56,295 nt of DNA from a virus, in the IMG/VR virus record IMGVR_UViG_3300036832_000712, positions 1 through 56,295 of that record; one strand, given 5' to 3'. The notes beneath the pieces were generated by a model. It made no database searches. It saw only the letters and a program-made list of their open reading frames with translations, and was not told where the DNA came from. How positions within the stretch are numbered: the stretch's first letter is position 1; each line of letters begins with the position of its first letter. Shown here one piece after another: positions 21,594-33,256 of the stretch. The translations under genes and the position numbers were made by a program.

Positions 21594-22031
21594 TCAGTTG
21601 ATCCGTATCGCGTCAACCACCCCACGCTTTATGCGCTTAAGCAAAGATGACGGGTCGGTACCCATATGTTCGGCCCACTCACTTAGACATTTACGTCGGC
21701 CTTTGATTTCGTAAATGACGTTCTGCCGTGTGTTGCGTGCTTGCTGAAGTGGAGTCACCCAACGACAGTTGGATGGGAAATACCCACGATCATTGTCGCG
21801 CCGATCGATACACATACCGGCCGGCGCTTCACCCATGTCGGCAAGGAAATTGGCAAACAAGTCCCATCGTTTGCAAACTTTTATTCCTCGCGCTCCATAC
21901 TTACGCCACCACGCGGCATTGGTAGTCGATGCACACCGAGCACGCATCCCTTTCCAAATGCGATACGTCCGTGTACCGCAACCACCGTGTCGATAGTTAG
22001 GATTGCGTTTTCCAGGGTAGGTCCTAGGCAT
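21594..22031 (-). CDS. HNH-family homing-type endonuclease
   Basis: 145 residues. [53 protein letters not shown] and QQARN follow the conserved Cys/His/Asn pattern of phage HNH endonucleases; a C-terminal helix-turn-helix-like CLSEWAEHMGTDPSSLLKRI may bind DNA. A paralog lies at 39814-40320 on the same strand. The start overlaps the VWA gene by 8 bases. Likely a mobile gene inserted in the MoxR/VWA cluster. Confidence 0.8.
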   Translation of the reverse strand: MPRTYPGKRNPNYRHGGCGTRTYRIWKGMRARCASTTNAAWWRKYGARGIKVCKRWDLFANFLADMGEAPAGMCIDRRDNDRGYFPSNCRWVTPLQQARNTRQNVIYEIKGRRKCLSEWAEHMGTDPSSLLKRIKRGVVDAIRIN

Positions 22032-23178
22032 CGACAGTGATCCTTACAACTCCAGCCCAATCGGGACACGTCGCGTCAGTCGTGCACCCGATGATGAGAG
22101 GGTAGGGTGTAGGGCTTTCAGGCCAGGGTGTATAAGCATCAGTCAGAAGCAGCACGACCTCAGGACTGTACTGCTCCGCCACATACTGCAGCGGCTTCCG
22201 CATGTCGGTGCCACCACCTCCTTTAGGGTGCAGAATCACCTCGTTGCCGTCCTCGAACACGTCGACGTTCGAGCACTCGGCATCGTCGGCCCAGATCACG
22301 CGCACGGTCATCGGCTTGATGACGGTGACGATGTGGTTCACCGCAACAGCTATCCTTTCGAATATCTCCTTGGTGAACATCGAGCCAGACGAATCAGCCA
22401 CGATGGTCAGCTCGTCCATGCCGTTGCTCCTGCGACTCGGCAAATAGATATTGCTGTACCGGCGATTGCGCCTGTTCCAGCTTTCGTCTTGTGCAAGACA
22501 GGCAGTCATGTAGTCGATCAGTACCTGCTCCCATGGCACCGGGTCCTCGTAGGTCGCGCCGACGATGGCCGCCAGCTCGCCCGGCATGACGCCATGCTGG
22601 CGGGCTATGGCGCTCGCCCGGGCCAGGGTCTTGTTGATGTGGTGCTCGATCGCCGCCGCCTGCTCGGGCGTGGCCGCCGGGACCGGCCGCAGGTCGCCGC
22701 CCAGGCCGCCCTGCCCAGGACCCTGGCCCTGCCCCTGCCCTTGTCCAGGCTGCCCCTGCTTCCCGCCCTGCTGCTCCAGCAGGGGGTAGATTTGCTCCGC
22801 GGTCATGCCGCGGTACTTGGGATCGATGAGCGCATACTGCCAGATTTTGAACTTGAGATCGTACAGCATGATGTTGATGGCGTAGTCGCAAGCCTTGTTC
22901 CAGCGCTCATGATCGCGAGAACCACGCCGTAAACCATGCTTGAGCAGTATGTGCATAAGTTCGTGGATAACTACGAACTTGGCGGTCGGGATGTCCAGCC
23001 CCTCGATGAAGGCCGGGTTGTAGCCGATGACCGTCATGTCGGTCCACGCTGTCGCGCAGGTCGGGTCCTCGACGAACGGAGTCTGCAGCAGGGCTGCTGC
23101 AAAGAACATAAGTTCTTTTACTTTTACGAGACTCGCTCTCGCAGTTTCCATAACAGAGAGTTGCTGTTGTCTTCTCAT
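22024..23178 (-). CDS. Metallopeptidase-like VWA protein (DUF2201-type)
   Basis: 384 residues. The N-terminal domain has VVIHELMHILLKH (HExxH, 72-76) in a putative zinc peptidase fold; a Gln/Gly-rich linker (138-162) follows; the C-terminal part is a von Willebrand A-like domain with ADSSGSM (262-267, MIDAS DxSxS) and GGGGTDMRKPL (MIDAS Thr), ending with VVLLLTDAYTPWP. This layout partners MoxR ATPases. With 24983-26065 and 20264-21118 it forms a phage MoxR-VWA-DUF3150 module. Confidence 0.85.
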   Translation of the reverse strand: MRRQQQLSVMETARASLVKVKELMFFAAALLQTPFVEDPTCATAWTDMTVIGYNPAFIEGLDIPTAKFVVIHELMHILLKHGLRRGSRDHERWNKACDYAINIMLYDLKFKIWQYALIDPKYRGMTAEQIYPLLEQQGGKQGQPGQGQGQGQGPGQGGLGGDLRPVPAATPEQAAAIEHHINKTLARASAIARQHGVMPGELAAIVGATYEDPVPWEQVLIDYMTACLAQDESWNRRNRRYSNIYLPSRRSNGMDELTIVADSSGSMFTKEIFERIAVAVNHIVTVIKPMTVRVIWADDAECSNVDVFEDGNEVILHPKGGGGTDMRKPLQYVAEQYSPEVVLLLTDAYTPWPESPTPYPLIIGCTTDATCPDWAGVVRITVDA

Positions 23179-24982: not shown

Positions 24983-26065
24983 TCAGTTCGAGGTATAGAC
25001 CTCGCGGTACTTCTTCACGTAGTCCATGTACGCATCGGCATCAAAGAGAGTGGCGTCCCGCGCGGTGGCGAGCTGCCACGCCATGACGACGAACTCCGCG
25101 GTGAACCGCTTGAGGTACATGTGCAGCTTGTCCACGTTGCCGAGCGTCATCTTCTCGGACACGTGCATGGCGGTCGCGTACTTGATCGAGAGTTCTTCGG
25201 GCACCGGGTACTTGTCGGGCGCCGCGAGAATCTTCTCGATATTGGGGAGGCTCTGCCAGACGTCAACGTGAGCCAGGAACTGCACTGCCGGCCCTTCACC
25301 GATAGCGCCGATCATGGCGGCCTCCTTGATCTCCGGCGTAAGGCGCTTGTCCTGCCACAGCTCGGCCGCGGTGAACCAAGTCCTTGGCGTGGCCACGATG
25401 GCCTGGGTCTTCTTCGGGTCGTAGGTGTTCACCAAGTCCGCGCAGAAATTCCAGAACGAGAGAAACACTTTGGGCACGCCTTGACTCTGCGCATAGATGC
25501 AGAAATCGTCTAGCGAATTGATCGCCTCGACGTGGATCAGCCGGTTGTTCAACGGCATGGGTAGTTTCTTGGCTAATGCCTGATCGTCTAGGAGATTGCC
25601 GGCCAAGAGCATGCGCACGTTGGGCTTCAAGACGTGCTCACCGATGCAGCGATTCAGCACAAGCTGCTGCATCACCGCAAAGACATCGTTCTTCGCATCA
25701 GGCGCTTCGTCGAAGAAAACAACGATGAGCTTGTCATCTGGAAAACTATCATTCCCGATGAACGGCATGGTACCTGGCGGATACCAGACCGTCGTTCCTG
25801 TCTTTTTGTCGGCCTGAGGGGTACCGCGCATATCGACGGAGTCGTACTGAGAGAGCCTGATGTCGATCAGGAGCGTGCCCGTGTAGGGGCAGTCTTTCCC
25901 GAGCAGCGCCTTGAGCGCCTCGGGGCTGTCGAGCTCGTCAACGGCCTGCTCGACACCTTGACTCTTGCCGATACCAAACCGGCCCCTGACGAGGATCGGC
26001 TTGTCGAGACGCACCACTATCTCTTTAACGGTGGTCTTGAGTTGAGAGATAGAAAGCTTCTTCAT
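24983..26065 (-). CDS. MoxR-like AAA+ ATPase
   Basis: 360 residues. Walker A GRFGIGKS (29-36 region), YDSVDMRGTP, LIVVFFDEAPDA (Walker B, D119 E120) and MLLAGN (sensor 1) are in MoxR order, with the short lid typical of this clade. MoxR ATPases remodel proteins together with VWA partners; the partners here are the HELMH/VWA protein (22024-23178) and DUF3150 protein (20264-21118). Palindromes flank the gene on both sides. Confidence 0.85.
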   Translation of the reverse strand: MKKLSISQLKTTVKEIVVRLDKPILVRGRFGIGKSQGVEQAVDELDSPEALKALLGKDCPYTGTLLIDIRLSQYDSVDMRGTPQADKKTGTTVWYPPGTMPFIGNDSFPDDKLIVVFFDEAPDAKNDVFAVMQQLVLNRCIGEHVLKPNVRMLLAGNLLDDQALAKKLPMPLNNRLIHVEAINSLDDFCIYAQSQGVPKVFLSFWNFCADLVNTYDPKKTQAIVATPRTWFTAAELWQDKRLTPEIKEAAMIGAIGEGPAVQFLAHVDVWQSLPNIEKILAAPDKYPVPEELSIKYATAMHVSEKMTLGNVDKLHMYLKRFTAEFVVMAWQLATARDATLFDADAYMDYVKKYREVYTSN

Positions 26066-26119: not shown

Positions 26120-26797
26120 TTAGTCGAATCTCAGCCAGAAGTGTTCCTCCTTGGTGATCATATCGAACCCACGCGCGGCAACAGCCACGCGCTGATCTGT
26201 TGTCAGCGCGCTGAACGGAGTCGCAACAAAATCGAGCACCGGCAGGGGCAGCCGCGTGCCCGTAACAGGTTCGGGCTGCATCTGCAGCCACACCTTGCAC
26301 GCATCGGTGAGTTCACCGATGTGCTTGCGTTGATCGTACGTCAGCGGCTGCGGATAGTGCCGTATGATCGGCTGGCCGACCGGCATGGCACCGGGGCCGG
26401 CGTAGTAGGCGGTGACGTTACGTTGGTTAGTCACCAGAAACCGTTCCGGAATTGGCGACGGCGTGTTCTCCGTAGTCAGCCAAGTATCAAGTGACACCGC
26501 ACGCTTGTGATCGAGATCAAGCAATAGCGTCTGCATCCCCTTGTGATTAAGATGCGACCAGGGAATGGGCTTGTCCTTGCCCGGAACGTACAGTCGCGGG
26601 CAGGCATCGTCGCCGGTGGCGACGATCCGGATGTGCAGGTCGTTGTAGGTCCTGCGCTGATCCGGGCGCCAGTGACGGTAGCATACGACGAACTCGCCGG
26701 TGTCGAACTGGACGAACGTGTTGTACACGTGATCGACGTGGAACGCGCTCCAGGCGTCCCAGTGCATCTTGGAGTAATCGAAAGCAGGTAAGTGCAT
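26120..26797 (-). CDS. Hypothetical protein, first gene after promoter P26.9
   Basis: 225 residues. MHWDAWSAFHVDHVYNTFVQ, FVVCYRHWRPDQRRTYND and LNHKGMQTLLLDLDHKRAVS are its best-ordered segments; aromatic and His-rich. No family recognised. It is the first gene downstream of a near-consensus promoter at 26893-26921 and leads the MoxR cluster, so it is likely co-expressed with MoxR. Confidence 0.65.
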   Translation of the reverse strand: MHLPAFDYSKMHWDAWSAFHVDHVYNTFVQFDTGEFVVCYRHWRPDQRRTYNDLHIRIVATGDDACPRLYVPGKDKPIPWSHLNHKGMQTLLLDLDHKRAVSLDTWLTTENTPSPIPERFLVTNQRNVTAYYAGPGAMPVGQPIIRHYPQPLTYDQRKHIGELTDACKVWLQMQPEPVTGTRLPLPVLDFVATPFSALTTDQRVAVAARGFDMITKEEHFWLRFD

Positions 26798-26951: not shown

Positions 26952-27140
26952 CTACCCCTCGTCAGACGGAGGTTTCGCCTGATCGAGCTCGTTCACCGCC
27001 TGCTGCAGGTCCAGCACCACGTGCAACAACAACTCGATGGCGTCGGCCTGCCAGCGGGTGTAGCTGACCATCTGGTTGGCGCTCGTGTTGTGCGCGTCCA
27101 GGTCCTGCTTGCGCAGCAGCATCTGCTGGATCGAGATCAT
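26952..27140 (-). CDS. Helical small protein, 62 residues
   Basis: MISIQQMLLRKQDLDAHNTS then NQMVSYTRWQADAIELLLHVVLDLQQAVNELDQ. Mostly helical; GGAG sits 6 bases before ATG, which overlaps the upstream stop (ATGA). Last gene of the small-gene operon reading 28323 to 26952. Unknown. Confidence 0.6.
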   Translation of the reverse strand: MISIQQMLLRKQDLDAHNTSANQMVSYTRWQADAIELLLHVVLDLQQAVNELDQAKPPSDEG

Positions 27141-27244
27141 TTGATTCTCCAGCTCATGAAGGCGTGCACGGCGACCGCTATGATCCAGATCATCACGCAC
27201 ATGAGCAGGACGGCCGCCAGCACGCTGATGATGTATCCGGTCAT
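27137..27244 (-). CDS. 35-residue membrane peptide
   Basis: MTGYIISVLAAVLLMCVMIW followed by IIAVAVHAFMSWRIK: one long hydrophobic helix with a basic end. GAGGCG precedes the ATG; the stop overlaps the next start as ATGA. Missed by size cut-offs but well placed. Confidence 0.6.
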   Translation of the reverse strand: MTGYIISVLAAVLLMCVMIWIIAVAVHAFMSWRIK

Positions 27245-27256
27245 GGCAGTGACGCC

Positions 27257-27433
27257 TCAGATGAACTCTTTCTGTTCCGCGAGCCATTCCGGCATCGTGA
27301 AGGTGCCGTCCTCGTTGTTCTCGACCTGGGACTTGGGCACCCATGCCGTGCGGGTGCCGTCGAACAGCAAATAAGCGTTATCTGTCTCGTGGCGAATCTC
27401 GGCGGCGATCTCTATCAACGGGCTGTCGCTCAC
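27257..27433 (-). CDS. Conserved small phage protein, GTG start
   Basis: 58 residues: SDSPLIEIAAEIRHETDNAY LLFDGTRTAWVPKSQVENNE then FTMPEWLAEQKEFI. The AWVPKSQxE...FTMPEWLA pattern recurs in small phage proteins of unknown function. GTG overlaps the preceding TGA (GTGA). Confidence 0.65.
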   Translation of the reverse strand: MSDSPLIEIAAEIRHETDNAYLLFDGTRTAWVPKSQVENNEDGTFTMPEWLAEQKEFI

Positions 27434-27651
27434 AGTGTAACATCCACCTGCTTGGCGCCGGCATGGCGTAGGATCAGCCGGGCTAGCTCGATCGCCTGGT
27501 GATCCGGCAGCGCGAACCACGAGACGTCCTTGCCGAAGTTCACGTGCACGTTGCCTCTATTGTCGTGAGTCACGCCGATCCGCAGTTCGCCCTCGTCGTG
27601 CGGCCCGAAAGAACCGTGCGGGAACTTGCCGGTGGCGCCTAGCTTGTTCAT
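27430..27651 (-). CDS. Hypothetical protein, 73 residues
   Basis: MNKLGATGKFPHGSFGPHDE, then GELRIGVTHDNRGNVHVNFGKDVSWFALPDHQAIELARLI. Looks like a compact alpha/beta phage protein: beta strands then a C-terminal helix with conserved-looking FGKDVSWFALPDHQA. CAGGAGTTACG leads the ATG. Similar short proteins accompany anti-defence genes; role unknown. Confidence 0.65.
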   Translation of the reverse strand: MNKLGATGKFPHGSFGPHDEGELRIGVTHDNRGNVHVNFGKDVSWFALPDHQAIELARLILRHAGAKQVDVTL

Positions 27652-27884
27652 CGTAACTCCTGCGAGCGCGCGTACGGAGCGCGCATTAGCTGCGGGGCTT
27701 TTTTCTGGATGATCTGGTGCACGCGCTGGAACGATACGCCGAAGCGATCGGCGCACGCGCGCAATGAATGCCCATCGGCGTAATAGGCGATGACCTGCGC
27801 CGGCTGGTGGTGGCGGCTGCGCAGGCTGCCGCACTTGCGCAGATAGTCAGTCAGCATCTGCTTTGACCGTTTGCGTGCACGCAT
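27648..27884 (-). CDS. Basic HTH protein
   Basis: 78 residues. SLRACADRFGVSFQRVHQII then QKKAPQL is a clear helix-turn-helix; the N-terminus MRARKRSKQMLTDYLRK is strongly basic. Shares shape with sigma region 4/resolvase C-terminal HTHs. Candidate regulator of the cluster or of the dispersed palindromes. Overlaps both neighbours (TGATG and ATGA). Confidence 0.7.
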   Translation of the reverse strand: MRARKRSKQMLTDYLRKCGSLRSRHHQPAQVIAYYADGHSLRACADRFGVSFQRVHQIIQKKAPQLMRAPYARSQELR

Positions 27885-28105
27885 CAGTTAGCCAGTTCCC
27901 AATCGGTCGCCAGCAGGTCGGTCTGCGAGCACAGCCACGGCACCAGATCACCTTGCGCAGTGAACATATAAACGTAAGGCAGCGTCATCTTGGAGTGCTC
28001 ATCAGGGGATTGTAGCTCCAAGTACATGTACTTGCCGTTCCAGCCCGAGCGGCGTACACGTTTGCCGTTTTGTATTGATTTGACCGCCCAGCCGATGCTG
28101 TTCAT
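27884..28105 (-). CDS. tad2: Tad2-family (DUF2829) Thoeris anti-defence protein
   Basis: 73 residues. GWAVKSIQNGKRVRRSGWNG KYMYLELQ, PDEHSKMTLPYVYMF, GDLVPWLCSQTDLLATDWEL reproduce the DUF2829 pattern almost throughout. DUF2829 proteins include Tad2, which binds the signalling nucleotide made by Thoeris TIR proteins and so blocks abortive immunity. Whether this copy binds the same ligand is inferred. It is preceded, ATGA-coupled, by the Acb2/Tad1-like gene at 28102-28323. Confidence 0.85.
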   Translation of the reverse strand: MNSIGWAVKSIQNGKRVRRSGWNGKYMYLELQSPDEHSKMTLPYVYMFTAQGDLVPWLCSQTDLLATDWELAN

Positions 28106-28323
28106 GCTGTAACTCCCTTCACGGCCCACATGGCCGCGTCCTCGAAATGCGTCTGGGCAAGGGAAAACAGGCGGATCGCCTCGCCGCTGGTGGTCTGCTT
28201 CTTGAAGTCCTCGCATAGGTCGATCAGATCAGCGGCGCGCATCTTGATGTTCTCGACGTCTTGATTGGCGCTCGGATTGAACGAAAGCCGCACGCGGGAT
28301 TGTCCTAACGTCTGCTCGGTCAT
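28102..28323 (-). CDS. Acb2/Tad1-hairpin-like anti-defence protein
   Basis: 73 residues. SRVRLSFNPSANQDVENIKM then AADLIDLCEDF and LFSLAQTHFEDAAMWAVKGVT. The two-helix layout with an AQTHxExAAMWAVK helix matches small phage proteins of the Acb2/Tad1 hairpin type, which sequester cyclic di- and trinucleotides of CBASS systems. Family assignment is by pattern memory and less secure than Tad2. Coupled to Tad2 by ATGA, so the pair forms a signal-sponge cassette. Confidence 0.65.
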   Translation of the reverse strand: MTEQTLGQSRVRLSFNPSANQDVENIKMRAADLIDLCEDFKKQTTSGEAIRLFSLAQTHFEDAAMWAVKGVTA

Positions 28324-28417: not shown

Positions 28418-28993
28418 TTACACCTGACGAGCGTTCTTCTCTTGGCGTTTGCGACGACTCAGCCATCCCATCAGCCCGAGACCGCCAGCGAACAGTGGCA
28501 GGGCAGCGGGGAGCGGCGTGGTCTCCAGCTGGAAGTTGGACTGGCCGATCGGGCCATTGACCCCGGATGCCTGGAGCTCGAAGAAGTAGTCCACCCCGGC
28601 CATCAGGGACACCACGTCGGTGTTGTTGTTGGCGGCGAAGTTGCCGGCAACCACCGTGCCGTTGACAGTATCCCGGGTGATCCTGAAGATTTCAGCGACG
28701 AAGCTCGGCAGATCGTTCGCCGGGTTGTTGAGCACGTCGACGTTGACCAGGGTGCCGTTGGCGCCGGATACAGTGAACTCGACGAAGTCGCTGAGGAACG
28801 ACGGCGCCGTGGTCGACTGCAGCGTGCCGGCAAGCTCGGTCGGGCTGACCGCCCCGACCGTTCCCTGCGACGGCGCAGGGCCAGTAAATGACAGCCCGTT
28901 CTGGACCAGATTGATGGTGGCGGCGTTAGCGGCGGTGACCATTAATCCCAGAGTCAGGGCAGCGCCGGCAGCGAGAAGGCTTCTCATAGTCAT
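28418..28993 (-). CDS. Secreted protein with PEP/VPLPA-CTERM-like tail
   Basis: 191 residues. Signal peptide MRSLLAAGAALTLGLMVTAA NA (start at 28993 or, three residues later, 28987), a Ser/Thr/Asn-rich beta ectodomain with many N-glycosylation-like NxT sites, and a C-terminus TPLPAALPLFAGGLGLMGWL then SRRKR: sorting motif, single membrane helix and basic cluster, as in exosortase substrates of Gram-negative bacteria. Such a protein in a phage would need the host exosortase for anchoring. A second one is at 32618-33256. Function at the surface unknown. Confidence 0.8.
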   Translation of the reverse strand: MTMRSLLAAGAALTLGLMVTAANAATINLVQNGLSFTGPAPSQGTVGAVSPTELAGTLQSTTAPSFLSDFVEFTVSGANGTLVNVDVLNNPANDLPSFVAEIFRITRDTVNGTVVAGNFAANNNTDVVSLMAGVDYFFELQASGVNGPIGQSNFQLETTPLPAALPLFAGGLGLMGWLSRRKRQEKNARQV

Positions 28994-32617: not shown

Positions 32618-33256
32618 TTAGGCTAGAGCTTTGCGGCGGCGCGTGAGCCAGCCCATGAGGCCCAGTCCGCCGAACATCAGCGGCAGCGATGCCGGCAGCG
32701 GCGTGGCCACCAGCGGTCCGGCCACGTCGATGCGGTAGTGCTCGTAGTCGGTGATCTCGCCAGTGGCATCGACCAGCGTCAAGAGGTTCATGGTCTCGCC
32801 GTTGATAGCGGTGAGGGTGAAGCCTGATTGCGCGTTGGCGGTGATCTGACCGAGGTCGATGTTGAAAGTGCCATCGGTGGCCTGCACGATGGCGTGCACG
32901 TCGCCACTTCCCTTCAAGCTGAACACCTGCGTCGAGGTGGTCAGCACCTGGGTGTCGGAGGTGTTGGAAAACACCTCGATCTGAAGATCAGATGTGTTGG
33001 AGATTTTTATGTCGTTGCCATTGGCGGCGCCGGCGAACAGTGAATTGCCGGAGAGGTCACTGAAGTTCACCACGCCAGTGTGCTGGCCATTGAACTGGCC
33101 GATAGCGAGGCTGCCGGCGAAGCTCTCGAAGGTGACATTGTCGCCGGTGCCCGAGAGCATGGGGCTCATGACGACGTCGGCATGCGCTGTTACGAGCGCC
33201 ACCGGCGCGAGCGCAAAAGCGCAGGCGAGCGTGAGCGCGAGCAGGGTCTTACGCAT
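32618..33256 (-). CDS. Second secreted protein with PEP/VPLPA-CTERM-like tail
   Basis: 212 residues. Signal peptide MRKTLLALTLACAFALAPVA with AHA cleavage area, then a beta-rich ectodomain (VTFESFAGSLAIGQFNGQHT, SDTQVLTTSTQVFSL), and the tail TPLPASLPLMFGGLGLMGWL then TRRRK. The tail nearly repeats that of 28418-28993, although the ectodomains differ. Leader GGGAACC before ATG is preceded by eight TTGG units and a dispersed palindrome at 33314. Host exosortase would be needed to process it. Confidence 0.8.
   Translation of the reverse strand: MRKTLLALTLACAFALAPVALVTAHADVVMSPMLSGTGDNVTFESFAGSLAIGQFNGQHTGVVNFSDLSGNSLFAGAANGNDIKISNTSDLQIEVFSNTSDTQVLTTSTQVFSLKGSGDVHAIVQATDGTFNIDLGQITANAQSGFTLTAINGETMNLLTLVDATGEITDYEHYRIDVAGPLVATPLPASLPLMFGGLGLMGWLTRRRKALA

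Follow-up and report, generated by a model that had tools for sequence, protein, structure and literature searches.

A pair of overlapping small genes in a tailed phage

We asked whether two small overlapping genes of a phage could act together as sponges for the signals of two defence systems, CBASS and Thoeris. The window (the whole stretch of DNA analysed) comprises 56,295 bases and is a virus record from IMG/VR. It belongs to an uncultured tailed phage, with terminase, head-tail adaptor and major head protein genes on the plus strand and DNA polymerase A and helicase genes in a leftward arm. None of 50,697 phage records was a near relative of its 17.0-33.5 kb stretch, and Rfam and tRNA searches returned nothing.

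The preliminary description had placed two ATGA-coupled genes at 27884-28323 and called one of them DUF2829 (Tad2) and the other, 28102-28323, an Acb2/Tad1 hairpin-like gene. Both genes were found there, on the minus strand, and both family calls were borne out: the downstream protein matched PF11195 (Tad2-like) and the upstream one PF24729 (Acb2_Tad1_hairpin), each above the cut-off of its profile (Table 1), so that the hairpin assignment, on which the idea of a pair hinged, survives. The genes are coupled, as the TGA stop of acb2 and the ATG start of tad2 overlap in the shared ATGA, and a purine-rich stretch, GGGAAAAGAG, lies 5' of the acb2 ATG at 28323. The operon as a whole runs on the minus strand in the leftward arm. 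Directly after tad2, the sequence TGATG at 27884 joins the end of tad2 to the start of a small helix-turn-helix gene by a one-base overlap. This gene is a putative regulator; any part of it in the sponge function would be conjectural.

Table 1. Positions of the features discussed in the text, with the evidence for each.
Feature	Position	Strand	Evidence
acb2, 73-aa Acb2-type helical hairpin protein, first of the pair	28102..28323	-	PF24729, 44.5 bits (E 1.8e-11, cut-off 27); helices 6-10, 21-43, 47-72; pLDDT 96.6
tad2, 73-aa compact Tad2-like protein without beta2-beta3 insertion	27884..28105	-	PF11195, 84.5 bits (E 7.5e-24, cut-off 25); pLDDT 96.0; best 24 PDB fold matches all Tad2/AcrIIA7
ATGA stop/start overlap between acb2 and tad2	28102..28105	-	read from sequence
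Small helix-turn-helix gene after tad2, one-base overlap	27648..27884	-	HTH_28, 25.6 bits (cut-off 25); overlap from sequence
Conserved genus gene, PHROG 8389-like, one border of the variable slot; start approximate	27257..27433	-	PHROG 8389, E 3.5e-10; 63-75% identity in L484 and L492
Conserved gene with PEP-CTERM-like tail, other border of the slot in L492	32618..33256	-	51% identity to L492:10093-10773
Copies of the palindrome GGTGTTACATNATGTAACACC	9803, 12278, 16890, 21390, 23758, 24955, 26092, 26835, 33313, 34556, 35911, 37015		mostly intergenic, leftward arm

The window Tad2 lacks the beta2-beta3 insertion

Which signals might the compact Tad2 take? An insertion between beta2 and beta3 marks the cyclic-dinucleotide-binding sub-group of HgmTad2 and SptTad2; it does not define Tad2 overall. 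A review places the binding of cyclic dinucleotides to Tad2 at an insertion between beta2 and beta5, away from the gcADPR pockets (PMC12043709). SPO1 Tad2 binds gcADPR and not 3'3'-cGAMP, and the phage has a further sponge, Acb4, which is unrelated to Tad2 (PMC11722364). His-ADPR is a ligand of Myroides Tad2 (PMC13299392), whose structure, 9eib, is among the fold matches of the window protein. In alignments of five solved Tad2s, the beta2-beta3 site holds between 13 (SPO1) and 30 (HgmTad2/AcrIIA7) additional residues, whereas the window Tad2 has none there. From this absence and the literature on Tad2 ligands, the window Tad2 is therefore predicted to take ADP-ribose signals, not cyclic dinucleotides.

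The pairing of compact tad2 with acb2 recurs

We asked whether the same two genes stand together elsewhere. Relatives were fetched from IMG/VR, in a sample built around one long Tad2 and the proteins of the window itself. In this collection acb2 adjoined 35 of 127 compact tad2 genes (nearly 30%) and the next most frequent neighbour family, terminase, only 8; about 70% of compact Tad2s had no adjoining acb2. The acb2 genes that occurred in tad2 loci (3-6 kb on each side) were mostly close to tad2, with 43 of 50 positions within 130 nt. The proportion was 41 of 48 without locus L141, whose matches to sub-clade d we judged to be a profile artefact and omitted from the trees and insertion counts. 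When whole records were searched with the Pfam model, 22 of 50 that carry a compact Tad2 had a hairpin-family match above cut-off, which in 15 lay no more than 112 nt from tad2 and on the same strand; for records with a longer Tad2 the corresponding figures were 5 of 46 and 2. When the search starts from acb2, only a weak association is seen, as loci fetched by the window Acb2 rarely contain tad2.

The partner Acb2s fall into four divergent sub-clades, and both gene orders were seen. The Tad2 tree, which is poorly resolved, requires at least 21 switches between the paired and the unpaired state, 12 changes of partner sub-clade and 9 of gene order. Therefore it is unlikely that the pairing goes back to a single inherited event. 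One locus (L091:4554-5233) has an acb2-tad2-acb2 triplet, in which two different Acb2s flank one Tad2. The pair is also present in bacterial genomes of the Bacillota, Actinomycetota and Alphaproteobacteria, namely in Paenibacillus bouchesdurhonensis, Lysinibacillus boronitolerans, Mycolicibacterium sphagni and a Marinosulfonomonas MAG; in a Flavobacteriaceae MAG the two genes are separated by a gap of about 240 nt. A literature search without most subscription journals found no published report of tad2 and acb2 as neighbours. The two families are known, and the recurrent two-sponge arrangement appears to be undescribed.

Sister phages tend to keep acb2 in the same interval and to exchange its sub-clade

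The window contains 12 copies of a 21-base palindrome, GGTGTTACATNATGTAACACC, with at most 3 mismatches, where none is expected in shuffles; the palindrome looks like the putative operator of a phage-wide regulator. Scanning the collection for this palindrome returned six viral records that carry many of the window's genes, the palindrome being common to these sister phages. Identity to the window, in one or another of the six, is 92% for the head protein, 85% for the terminase and 74% for the polymerase. None of the six has tad2. Four of them have acb2 (L484, L485, L492 and L497). In L492, as in the window, the interval that holds it is bounded by the PHROG 8389 gene and by the conserved gene with the PEP-CTERM-like tail; for L484 and L485, other shared genes point to this interval too. 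The sister Acb2s belong to sub-clade b (L484, L492, L497) or d (L485), and the window Acb2 to sub-clade a. As different sub-clades occupy one interval in sister phages, the genus tends to keep an Acb2 there and to exchange it, and tad2 is an addition in the window's phage.

Tad2s without the insertion are more often paired

Can the missing insertion be linked to the presence of a partner? Total Tad2 length was dropped as a classifier because some longer Tad2s (L225, L419, L426 and L427) owe their extra residues to the beta3-beta4 loop rather than to the beta2-beta3 site; insertions were counted per site instead. By this count, 41 of 180 Tad2s without the insertion were paired, as against 1 of 93 with it (p 2e-7), and the direction was the same in the viral sample (37/143 versus 1/53) and in the genome sample (4/37 versus 0/40). 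With one row per 70% cluster the figures were 12 of 54 and 1 of 69 (p 2e-4), and after thinning at 60% they were 3 of 15 and 1 of 42 (p 0.05). An independent-pairs test of insertion against pairing found 1-2 supported pairs and had no power, because the insertion changes only 4-8 times on the tree. The link is thus suggestive, inseparable from shared ancestry and, at this tree-aware power, too weak a basis for causality.

These data also bear on the main competing explanation, namely that the two sponges are independent and lie together only since accessory phage genes gather in variable slots, without any division of labour, the link with the insertion being due to shared phage ancestry. The tree-aware test, which lacks power, leaves room for this explanation; the sister phages with acb2 and no tad2 fit it, and co-location of anti-defence genes has been reported as a general pattern in phages (PMC12259885). 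However, among the accessory genes beside compact tad2 acb2 is far more frequent than any other family, and the pairings involve four Acb2 sub-clades in two orders. We therefore regard mere co-location as unlikely, and favour two sponges that complement each other.

The window Tad2 resembles signal-binding Tad2s

The window Tad2 was modelled with high confidence (Table 1). Its PDB fold matches with E values up to 1.0e-5, 24 in number, are without exception Tad2 or AcrIIA7, the next match having an E value of 0.22; at the top stands gcADPR-bound SPO1 Tad2. The ligand-loop motifs GWNG and SQTD are conserved, and the family profile matches all seven solved Tad2 sequences. The window protein thus shares its family, predicted fold and both motifs with SPO1 gp34.65, HgmTad2/AcrIIA7, SptTad2 and Myroides ModTad2, and differs from the solved proteins in its length of 73 aa, in the missing insertion (about 13 to 30 residues in those solved and aligned) and in adjoining acb2. 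In another locus (L387:2422-3187) three Tad2 domains stand in tandem on the same strand, possibly as a multi-domain or triplicated Tad2.

Solved members of the family have been deposited as AcrIIA7, 'Inhibitor of Type II CRISPR-Cas system'. The window Tad2 could accordingly be an AcrIIA7-like Cas9 inhibitor, or have another role other than sequestration, which would leave Acb2 as the sole signal sponge. However, those same AcrIIA7/HgmTad2 structures have 1',2'-cADPR and cGG as ligands. As the top fold matches, together with the two motifs kept, also point to gcADPR-binding Tad2, we consider this role very improbable. A signal-sequestering Tad2 remains our preferred reading.

The window Acb2 is a stand-alone hairpin

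The upstream protein is assigned to Acb2 by sequence, the profile match being found again when the whole record was searched; its helical fold is consistent with this and not diagnostic. The model, one short helix followed by two long ones, follows the plan given for Acb2 in a review (PMC12043709). Foldseek yielded no significant match to it, only generic helical proteins, and in VIA-align T4 Vs.4 came up at Z 6.0 together with unrelated proteins that are likewise helical. A profile built from 63 relatives detected T4 Vs.4, whose structure was solved with cGAMP, at E 0.0023, and Tad1 with a marginal score. A designed repeat protein that outscored T4 Vs.4 in the same search was taken as a chance match of four weak repeats and set aside. 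When window Acb2 and T4-type Acb2 were aligned jointly, invariant K27 of the former fell on K23 of the latter; the column of T4 Y8 holds R12, and the invariant F15-N-P is a possible counterpart of Y8-K-P after a shift of 3 residues. K23 and Y8 of T4 Acb2 are presumably ligand-contact residues. A C-terminal signature, T..E.A.MWA.K, is common to both proteins.

Compared with T4 Vs.4 and the Acb2 of a Pseudomonas phage, the window protein belongs to a distinct sub-clade in which an FNPS motif replaces the GYKP stretch, and it differs from T4 Acb2 in having Arg in the tyrosine column and tad2 as a partner. The hairpin is also common to Tad1. In Tad1, however, an N-terminal beta domain is fused to the hairpin in one protein (123-138 aa in the solved chains), whereas the window has two separate 73-aa proteins, of which Acb2, all helical in the model, lacks that beta domain. 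That the upstream protein is a generic small helical hairpin and no nucleotide sponge, as the generic fold matches and the T4 tyrosine, which is not clearly kept, might suggest, is the least probable of the alternatives, given the PF24729 score well above cut-off, the family profile that reaches T4 Vs.4 and, marginally, Tad1, the invariant lysine and signature common to T4-type Acb2, and the recognised Acb2s of other sub-clades in the same slot of sister phages.

Genes around the pair

The small genes at 26952-27651 had been put forward as natural candidates for further anti-defence functions. The small ORFs do exist, but that account left out the helix-turn-helix gene directly after tad2, and we rejected the proposed function as it has no family support; one of the genes is the conserved genus gene of PHROG 8389. 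Searches of Pfam and PHROG gave no informative family match for the 73-aa ORF at 27648..27430, the 35-aa peptide at 27244..27137 or the 62-aa C-terminal ORF that ends at 26952. Just past the end of the operon there is a strong sigma-70-like promoter (26921-26893, minus strand; 11/12 matches, extended TG), which lies upstream of a palindrome copy and of the gene 26797..26120.

Two minus-strand genes, 28418-28993 directly upstream of acb2 and 32618-33256, which has a homologue in L492, encode proteins that begin with what resembles a signal peptide and end in a PEP-CTERM-like tail (PLPAxLPLxxGGLGLMGWLxRRxK). The first of them scored only 11.6 bits against TIGR02595, under the cut-off of 16. Phage proteins apparently built for the host's exosortase would, if so, be unusual. 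Further along the minus strand, the genes 22024-23178 and 24983-26065 encode a DUF2201 metallopeptidase/VWA-like protein and, nearby, a protein without a Pfam match that looks, by eye, like a MoxR-type AAA ATPase.

Two proposed complementary sponges in one operon

What might the pair do for the phage? We propose, with a probability of roughly two in three, that one operon encodes two complementary signal sponges, Acb2 for the cyclic oligonucleotides of CBASS and the compact Tad2 for the ADP-ribose signals of Thoeris. Sequestration of both kinds of signal by the pair would follow from family membership, which is directly supported, as are the Tad2 fold, the coupling of the genes, the recurrent pairing and the missing insertion. 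Both sponges would be made together during infection from the leftward-arm operon, their expression being coupled. Acb2 would assemble into an oligomer of helical hairpins and sequester the cyclic oligonucleotides of CBASS; the compact Tad2 would likewise oligomerise, in the Tad2 fold, and take up gcADPR or His-ADPR. With both signals lowered, the effectors of CBASS and Thoeris would stay off. The sponge pair in one operon that the preliminary description had suggested has thus gained support from the profiles, the Tad2 structure match, conservation and the recurrent pairing in other phages.

Jointly the pair would cover the range of a Tad1 or a long Tad2 alone, and its predicted joint ligand range resembles that of Tad1 (PMC12043709). 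SPO1, too, carries two sponges in one phage, one for Thoeris that fails to bind 3'3'-cGAMP and a separate one for CBASS (PMC11722364), but its Acb4 has a fold unrelated to that of Acb2. More tentatively, and at somewhat less than even odds in our judgement, compact Tad2 and Acb2 may form a recurrent two-gene unit with a division of labour, in which Tad2s without the insertion rely on the partner Acb2 for CBASS signals. Such a unit would do in two proteins what Tad1 or a long Tad2 does in one, and would have been put together repeatedly among phages of several bacterial phyla. The list of single sponges would then become a testable rule: the signals that a Tad2 cannot bind would predict the kind of sponge that adjoins it. 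The named isolates with the pair (P. bouchesdurhonensis, L. boronitolerans and M. sphagni) give experimental access to it. Moreover, a slot that exchanges Acb2 sub-clades, with or without tad2, can serve as a search key, as it marks where these phages may carry further signal-blocking genes.
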